From Methylophilus medardicus (lineage in GTDB: Bacteria > Pseudomonadota > Gammaproteobacteria > Burkholderiales > Methylophilaceae): a DNA stretch of 64,000 bases. Below the pieces are notes generated by a model that was not told the DNA's origin, searched no databases, and saw only the letters and a list, made by a program, of their open reading frames with translations. Within the stretch, counting starts at the first letter, position 1. Each line of letters begins with the position of its first letter. Positions 52,110 to 53,378 of this stretch are shown here, piece after piece. Where the stretch lies: the NCBI RefSeq assembly GCF_006363955.1, contig NZ_CP040948.1, positions 1,116,001-1,180,000 on the forward strand. Reading direction: 5' to 3'. A program made the translations under genes and the position numbers.

Positions 52110-52613
52110 TTATGCGAGTACTGCTAAGGCCGCTGCATAGTTTGGTTCATTTGCAATTTCAGAGACCAGTTCACTGTGCAGCACTTTATCGTGCTCATCC
52201 AGCACAACCACTGCGCGAGCTGTCAAGCCAGCCAAGCTGCTGTCGGTGATGAATACACCATAGTCGGTGGCAAATTTTGCAGTGTCGCGAAAGGTGGACA
52301 GGGTAACGACGTTTTCCAGACCTTCGGCACCACAAAAGCGGCTCTGTGCAAACGGTAAGTCAGCGGAAATGCAAAGTACGACTGTGTTGGCAACGCTGCT
52401 GGCTTCTTTATTGAAGGTACGCACAGAGGTTGCGCATGTTGGCGTGTCAATGCTTGGGAAAATATTGAGCACTTTGCGTTTGCCGGTGTAGGCATCTAAA
52501 CCTAGCAGATTACGTTTGGCATCTGCAAGTTGAAACGCTGGGGCAGAATCGCCGACCGTTAAAAATTTACCGCCAACGGCGACTGGGTTACCTTTAAGCG
52601 TGACGCTTGCCAT
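52110..52613 (-). CDS. tpx: Thiol peroxidase Tpx
   Basis: A 167-residue atypical 2-Cys peroxiredoxin that removes lipid and hydrogen peroxides with thioredoxin. The peroxidatic Cys is in [17 protein letters not shown] and the resolving Cys in [36 protein letters not shown] and [11 protein letters not shown] close the fold. The ATG at 52613 follows GGAGAAG and gives the usual N-terminus [21 protein letters not shown] second, degenerate Tpx gene lies 86 bp upstream on the same strand. Confidence 0.96.
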
Positions 52614-52699
52614 AATCTTCTCCATTTGATGTTTAGATTGTTAATTGCGTACTTTAACGTGTTGGGCGATGTCAATCAACCACACAACATGTAAGGGAA

Positions 52700-53224
52700 T
52701 CACTTTTGAAGTACAGCCAAGGCAGCAGCGTAGTCGGGCTCATTACTTAATTCTTTCACTAGTTCAACATGCAACACCTGGTCGTTTTCATCGGCCACCA
52801 TCAGCACACGGGCAGGTAAGCCGGCGAGCTTACTGGTCATCATTAGCACGCCATAGTTTTTGAGCATGTCGCGACCGCGCATGGTGGACAAGTGGATGCA
52901 GCCACTCAAGTTTTCTGCACTGCAAAATCGGCTCATAGTGAAGGGTAAATCTGCAGAAATATGCAGAATGACTGTATTCGGCAGCTGTTTGCCCAGCGTC
53001 TCCAGTGTGCGCAGGCTGTTTGCACTTGCGGGGGTGTCTATGGCGGGGAAGAAGTGCAGAATCTTGCGCTGGCCACGAAATGCCTCCAGCGAGACATCTT
53101 CCAAGGCCTGATTTACCAATTGAAAAAAAGGCAAGGTCTGACCTAGGCTGGGTAAATCGTCCTCCACGAGGATGGGGTCATCTATTAAAGCAGTAGCATT
53201 CGTCATGCGTGGCAATCTTTTCAT
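52700..53224 (-). CDS. Tpx-like protein lacking the peroxidatic cysteine
   Basis: A 174-residue paralogue of the neighbouring Tpx, alignable throughout. At the peroxidatic site FPAIDTPASANSLRTLE has Ser (codon AGT) where Tpx has Cys; the resolving Cys is kept in LPFTMSRFCSAENLSGC and a further Cys follows (SGC). It should not work as a normal peroxidase. The C-terminus ([13 protein letters not shown]) is conserved and the frame is intact, so it is not a decayed pseudogene. The start at 53224 has GAGG upstream; an ATG at 53206 is possible. It is transcribed toward tpx and is divergent from dnaE. Confidence 0.88.
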   Translation of the reverse strand: MKRLPRMTNATALIDDPILVEDDLPSLGQTLPFFQLVNQALEDVSLEAFRGQRKILHFFPAIDTPASANSLRTLETLGKQLPNTVILHISADLPFTMSRFCSAENLSGCIHLSTMRGRDMLKNYGVLMMTSKLAGLPARVLMVADENDQVLHVELVKELSNEPDYAAALAVLQK

Positions 53225-53378
53225 AAAAAACGCCTCACATCATAGAACATTATGCCGACATGTTAAATTTTTTTATTGAGCAGCATGATAAAACTCAGTT
53301 GGGGCATGGGTCGATCTTTTAATGCTGTCAATCAGATTATTTGCACTCGTCAGGGGTACAAAAAGCCGTGTTGGCGGT

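Follow-up and report, generated by a model that had tools for sequence, protein, structure and literature searches.

The window analysed here, a stretch of 64,000 nucleotides from Methylophilus medardicus, carries two neighbouring genes of the thiol peroxidase (Tpx) family on its (-) strand. One of them, tpx (52110..52610), encodes a normal thiol peroxidase with both cysteine residues; its listed frame reaches 52625, and its start is probably at 52610, behind a conserved GGAG. The other, at 52700..53224 (-), is an open, full-length frame of 174 codons whose product shares 48% identity with that of the adjacent tpx. Because all other copies of this paralogue begin in the alignment at the residue equivalent to Met7, its true start is probably at 53206, which would give a protein of 168 amino acids. 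The paralogue motif AIDTPASANSLRT aligns with its tpx counterpart without gaps and with serine in the place of cysteine, and the slightly longer motif FPAIDTPASANSLR likewise aligns without gaps. This serine, Ser67, is encoded by the AGT codon at 53024..53026 (-) and occupies the position of the peroxidatic cysteine (C_P; C61 in E. coli), since phmmer aligns it with position 61 in the structures of Tpx C61S from E. coli and Yersinia. The initial annotation of the locus, an intact Tpx paralogue with serine (AGT) for the peroxidatic cysteine in tandem with a normal tpx, is thereby confirmed.

The paralogue scores 165.9 bits against the NCBIfam model NF001808 (Tpx; cut-off 123) and 73.2 bits against Redoxin PF08534 (cut-off 26.6). 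NF001808, a curated equivalog model, thus names a protein lacking the catalytic cysteine "thiol peroxidase" well above its cut-off, an annotation trap in which automatic naming would call the paralogue an active enzyme. Nine places in the genome of the window exceed the PF08534 cut-off (Redoxin/AhpC-TSA), tpx and the paralogue included, and given these other proteins, defence against peroxides does not depend on the paralogue.

In the 16 species whose paralogue carries the serine (the Ser species), the usual gene order is fabF, tpx (-), paralogue (-), dnaE (+). No fabF was found in the stretches from genomes G063, G075 and G076 (L013, L016, L032); the far neighbour in G075 is a frame that resembles mazG. 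In four of the species whose paralogue has cysteine (G066, G069, G071, G078), the pair is found next to a FIST-like frame and to a cluster of the cheW/pil type, and about 10 kb separate it from dnaE (names read from the frames). Since the tandem is present in Cys species too, it is older than the loss of the cysteine. The segment with the FIST-like frame and a cheW/pilJ-like chemotaxis cluster seen at these loci (L036-L039, from G066, G069, G078 and G071, respectively) is missing from the stretch that separates the pair from dnaE in the Ser species, and its loss falls in the same part of the tree as the Cys-to-Ser change.

The spacer between the two genes holds a candidate sigma70-like promoter for tpx, TTGATT-N17-TAAAGT (52651..52679, (-)), proposed from sequence conservation only and found upstream of tpx in 15 of the 16 Ser species and in none of the five Cys species. 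On the same kind of evidence, CTATGATG at 53238..53245 (-) is a candidate -10 element of the paralogue: it occurs in 14 of the 16 Ser species and as TTATGATG in one more, with the box 37-40 bases before the paralogue in these 15 species and 47-51 bases before it in two of the five Cys species. As there is a conserved promoter-like box ahead of each gene, tpx and the paralogue may be transcribed separately; a strict operon is unsupported, the spacer carrying a conserved promoter-like site. Farther upstream, in the dnaE/paralogue spacer, lies the block AAATAATCTGATTGACAG (53325-53342 of the window, (-)), within which AAATAAT and TTGACA are invariant in the 16 Ser species; it could be a promoter of dnaE or an operator.

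In a Tpx gene tree built by a quick method with SH-aLRT support only, the paralogue does not join tpx but lies beside Tpx proteins of other genera, so that a recent tandem duplication is unsupported. The G077 paralogue has a long branch and clusters with other genera, and its orthology therefore rests on position. The copies of G075 and G076 are placed inside a group of closely related species by the gene tree but not by a tree of DnaE, a placement that we take for long-branch attraction. G077, the deepest-branching member of the genus, also encodes a second DnaE-like protein (L128, G077:C162:422-3610), 40% identical to the DnaE of the window.

Within the family Methylophilaceae, 163 of 187 genomes gave a Tpx match, and 21 of the 22 Methylophilus genomes contain two side-by-side copies. 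The sole genome of the genus in which no Tpx match was found is G070, a draft that is 88% complete; its nearest relative by DnaE, G078, carries the pair, and the absence in G070 is either an assembly gap or a true loss. Position 67 was read in 103 sequences, of which 42 belong to the genus and 61 to other genera of the family. It is cysteine in all 61 of the latter and in 21/21 tpx products of the genus, and among the 21 genus paralogues it is serine in 16 and cysteine in 5. The DnaE tree was built from 22 genomes and an outgroup row in which 36% of the columns are filled; in it, the 16 Ser species form one clade with support 100/100 and a single change of state, and the five species with a Cys paralogue branch deeper, outside this clade. 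With serine throughout the clade and cysteine in the five species outside it, the Cys-to-Ser exchange arose once, as a single, clade-defining change in the ancestor of this Methylophilus clade, in which it is fixed. Its presence in 16 genomes rules out a sequencing or strain error as the source of the serine. Whether paralogues in Methylophilaceae genomes conserve the serine, a question raised by the initial annotation, can thus be answered with 16/16 species of one clade; the accompanying suspicion, that homologues with cysteine would mark the serine as strain-specific, holds in so far as such homologues exist, but they are confined to the five deeper-branching species, the Ser clade is free of them, and the exchange is not strain-specific.

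A scan of 84,980 species genomes in public databases for the AGY-encoded serine version of one Tpx motif context yielded 12 matches, 10 of which are Methylophilus or Methylophilaceae records; these 10 include M. methylotrophus DSM 46235, M. aquaticus and M. rhizosphaerae. The other two are chance matches outside Tpx, one antisense to a putative RNase G-like frame and one in frames unlike Tpx. This count is a lower bound, because the scan used one motif context and AGY codons only and missed the known members G068 and G076. With cysteine in place of serine, the same motif was found in 11 of 369 genomes from the class and therefore captures only some of the diversity of Tpx. Among the 187 family genomes, a TCN-encoded serine version of the motif had no match, and a looser motif allowing Ser, Thr or Cys returned 145 rows, 14 with AGY, all in the genus, and the rest with TGY (by eye).

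The paralogue has been kept by purifying selection since the loss of the cysteine. Its median NG86 dN/dS is 0.064 (range 0-0.078), about five times that of tpx (0.011), as estimated from the 12 of 120 Ser-clade pairs with dS below 1.5 in both genes, which are not independent of each other. A dN/dS near 0.06 and open frames in 16/16 species rule out a pseudogene; the genus frames read to the first stop are full length, and a few rows of the family-wide Tpx search carried a flag for a stop within the aligned part. On the DnaE topology, codon 67 has undergone at least four switches between AGT and AGC and no amino acid change. Under neutrality and a 2:1 transition weight, roughly a sixth of the changes at an AGY codon should leave the amino acid as it is, so that four of four has a chance of about 0.001, and neutral drift at this codon is unlikely. 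Position 101, once the resolving cysteine (C_R; E. coli C95), was replaced at least six times on the same topology. In the window, the cysteine is present within an FC pair (codon 52922..52924, (-)); among the Ser species it is kept in 10/16 and replaced in 6/16, by Y, Y, L, A, K and K, and four of these six have no cysteine at any aligned position. Ser67 has thus been uncoupled from the resolving cysteine in evolution. As 54 of 168 paralogue positions are invariant in the Ser clade, the invariance of Ser67 is unremarkable by itself; what carries weight is how differently position 101 and the relaxed loop around the serine have behaved. In G075 and G076 (L016, L032), the serine is kept, the paralogue evolves much faster, and lysine replaces the resolving cysteine.

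The claim that the resolving cysteine is retained therefore stands for the window and, in the clade, for 10/16 species. The related suggestion, that a second cysteine downstream (Cys109) could form a different disulfide, found no support: with Cys109 in only 3/16 and Cys101 in 10/16 of the Ser species, a Cys101-Cys109 disulfide is rejected.

Constraint on the paralogue lies away from the former redox centre. In the redox loop (C_P loop and helix, residues 60-72), 4 of 13 positions are invariant in the paralogue (Pro60, Ile62, Asp63, Ser67), against 13/13 in tpx of the same 16 species. The most conserved part of the paralogue comprises residues 116-145 (52790..52879, (-)), where 20 of 30 positions are invariant against 34 of 138 elsewhere (Fisher p = 2e-5, this being one of six regions tried); the corresponding figures for tpx are 24/30 and 97/138. 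The block contains the equivalents of the dimer-contact residues of Yersinia Tpx, in which R110 contacts main-chain atoms of G125, P126 and A128 (PMC3288085, cited throughout from excerpts); by phmmer alignment, Yersinia R110, G125, P126, A128 and R133 map to R116, S131, K132, A134 and R139 of the paralogue. Compared with its own tpx, the block differs at 17 of 30 residues and contains a one-residue gap (counted on the alignment). Active-site and dimer residues have largely persisted in the Ser clade: Pro60, Arg116 and Arg139 (E. coli R133; codon 52808..52810, (-)) are found in 16/16 members, as are D63 and R99, and Thr64 (E. coli T58; codon 53033..53035, (-)) in 15/16, with isoleucine in G068. 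The retention of Pro, Thr and Arg may be structural. Twelve positions, among them H57, F58, S67, L74, T96 and P137, carry a residue that is typical of the Ser clade (at least 14/16) and occurs in none of the 26 Cys-type sequences of the genus, a pattern that suggests repacking around the old active site.

An AlphaFold model of the paralogue, built from 51 sequences, reached a pLDDT of 92 and has the Tpx fold, including an N-terminal hairpin (strands 9-13 and 16-21); its best PDB matches are all Tpx proteins. Its rmsd is 0.8-1.0 A to Yersinia Tpx in the reduced state and to the E. coli and Yersinia C61S mutants, and 2.1-2.6 A to oxidised chains from these two species. In PMC3288085, the Yersinia C61S protein is a folded dimer with the same structure as reduced Tpx, and it is called catalytically inactive. 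The model agrees with a locked reduced form, which we take as weak support and not as proof, because AlphaFold likely gives the reduced form for any such sequence.

Taken together, these patterns indicate that the paralogue most likely no longer carries out peroxidase chemistry and serves a different purpose. Lacking C_P, it would form neither a sulfenic acid nor a C_P-C_R disulfide, so that peroxidase turnover is not expected and the protein is predicted to stay in the reduced, fully folded Tpx state; a loss of thioredoxin-dependent peroxidase activity is also expected by analogy with Tpx C61S (PMC3288085). We infer that the paralogue works by binding instead of turnover, as a constitutive "reduced-state" dimer in which the Pro/Thr/Arg peroxide pocket and the 116-145 surface would hold either a ligand (peroxide, lipid hydroperoxide or a related acid) or a partner protein. 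The kept pocket, the kept surface and the free loss of the resolving cysteine fit such a binder in the reduced-state fold. Self-pairing would be more probable than pairing with Tpx, because the conserved block is of the paralogue's own type, set off from its tpx by the gap and the 17 differing residues, and the paralogue thus probably forms a homodimer. That it is a maintained pseudo-Tpx which lost peroxidase chemistry through one Cys-to-Ser change, has been selected since and acts by binding as a reduced-state dimer has, in our estimate, about an even chance of being correct. More tentatively, we propose that it is a natural Tpx pseudoenzyme, as far as seen in one Methylophilus clade, in which the exchange of C_P for serine made a dedicated, permanently folded binding protein, which would either sense hydroperoxides or lipids or supply the non-catalytic half of a mixed dimer with Tpx. 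Of the earlier idea of a pseudo-peroxidase with another role, the core survives, namely an intact, maintained protein without the catalytic cysteine (16/16 Ser, dN/dS about 0.06), and the disulfide is dropped.

Pairing with Tpx is possible and makes the most interesting rival, because both subunits contribute to the Tpx cleft and the β4-α2 loop residues are retained in 16/16 Ser species. The paralogue would then be the non-catalytic subunit of a heterodimer with the adjacent Tpx, whose active site it would complete and tune, or else dilute. In Yersinia Tpx, the cleft uses the β4-α2 loop of the other subunit (PMC3288085), and the loop residues S90, D92, L93, P94, F95, R99 and F100 as well as the dimer arginine R116 are kept in 16/16 Ser species, and D63 likewise counts among the kept residues that bear on interface compatibility; hetero-oligomers of eukaryotic Prx1/AhpC-type paralogues have been published (PMC13038412, excerpts). 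The two genes stand in tandem in 21/21 genus genomes in which Tpx was found, but they already did so before the cysteine was lost, and their proximity does not have to stem from the new role. Nor does the arrangement force co-expression, since a conserved promoter-like site stands before tpx itself. With just 13/30 identities and a gap between the two proteins in block 116-145, and with tpx and the paralogue being separate, older Tpx types in the gene tree, we regard the heterodimer as unlikely, though less so than the readings that follow. Slow decay, in which a redundant duplicate is gradually being lost and its serine is a neutral leftover, would account for the loss of the resolving cysteine on at least six occasions, the relaxed redox loop and the long branches of G075 and G076; it is largely refuted by the dN/dS of about 0.06, the open frames in 16/16 species, the codon 67 record of at least four synonymous and no amino acid changes, and the conserved upstream elements, and we consider it improbable.

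The remaining readings give the paralogue a new chemistry. Ser67 could have become a nucleophile, its pKa lowered by the Thr/Arg pocket, in an acyl or ester hydrolase or transferase, as the occurrence of serine alone at position 67 (16/16) and the retention of Pro60 and Arg139 would allow. No His or Asp charge relay was identified (without a structural search for one), Thr64 is isoleucine in one species, serine suits the packing of the folded helix better than any other residue, and we know of no relative with such an activity; the proposal is therefore very doubtful. Least credible is a residual Cys-dependent enzyme with Cys101 as the new peroxidatic residue: that cysteine is present in 10/16 Ser species, but the six species without it, four of them without cysteine at any aligned position, refute this role across the clade.

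In a literature search with subscription journals mostly outside its scope, the matches listed included no natural Tpx without C_P and no Tpx-type pseudoenzyme; as far as its excerpts go, PMC6617597 concerns an engineered mutant and PMC8945050 holds nothing on a natural Tpx without C_P. Peroxiredoxins, Tpx and pseudoenzymes are known, and, as far as we have seen, a Tpx with a fixed and selected serine for C_P is new. Peroxiredoxins have been suspected of non-redox work such as signalling and chaperoning, which is hard to part from peroxidase activity. In the paralogue, evolution itself would have separated the two, with the Cys orthologues of sister species as a natural control, and the system sits in culturable methylotrophs, M. 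methylotrophus among them.

Compared with Tpx proteins (NF001808; E. coli, Yersinia), the paralogue has the same fold, length, N-terminal hairpin, active-site Pro/Thr/Arg and dimer arginine, but it lacks the peroxidatic cysteine in 16/16 and the resolving cysteine in 6/16 species, and its redox loop is relaxed. It has the same residue exchange as the laboratory Tpx C61S mutants (PDB 3HVV, 4AF2, 2YJH), whose conformation its model takes; unlike in those mutants, made to trap the reduced state, its serine evolved and is kept by selection. In pairs of the Tsa1-Tsa2 type, both subunits are active peroxidases, in contrast to what is expected of the paralogue. The present pair resembles such hetero-oligomeric Prx1/AhpC pairs in providing two peroxiredoxin paralogues per cell that might co-assemble (PMC13038412). 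It differs from Tsa1-Tsa2 in belonging to another subfamily. In pseudoenzymes such as pseudokinases and inactive rhomboids, the fold was kept, a catalytic residue was lost once and the loss fixed, and constraint moved to another surface, and the Methylophilus paralogue is alike in these respects.
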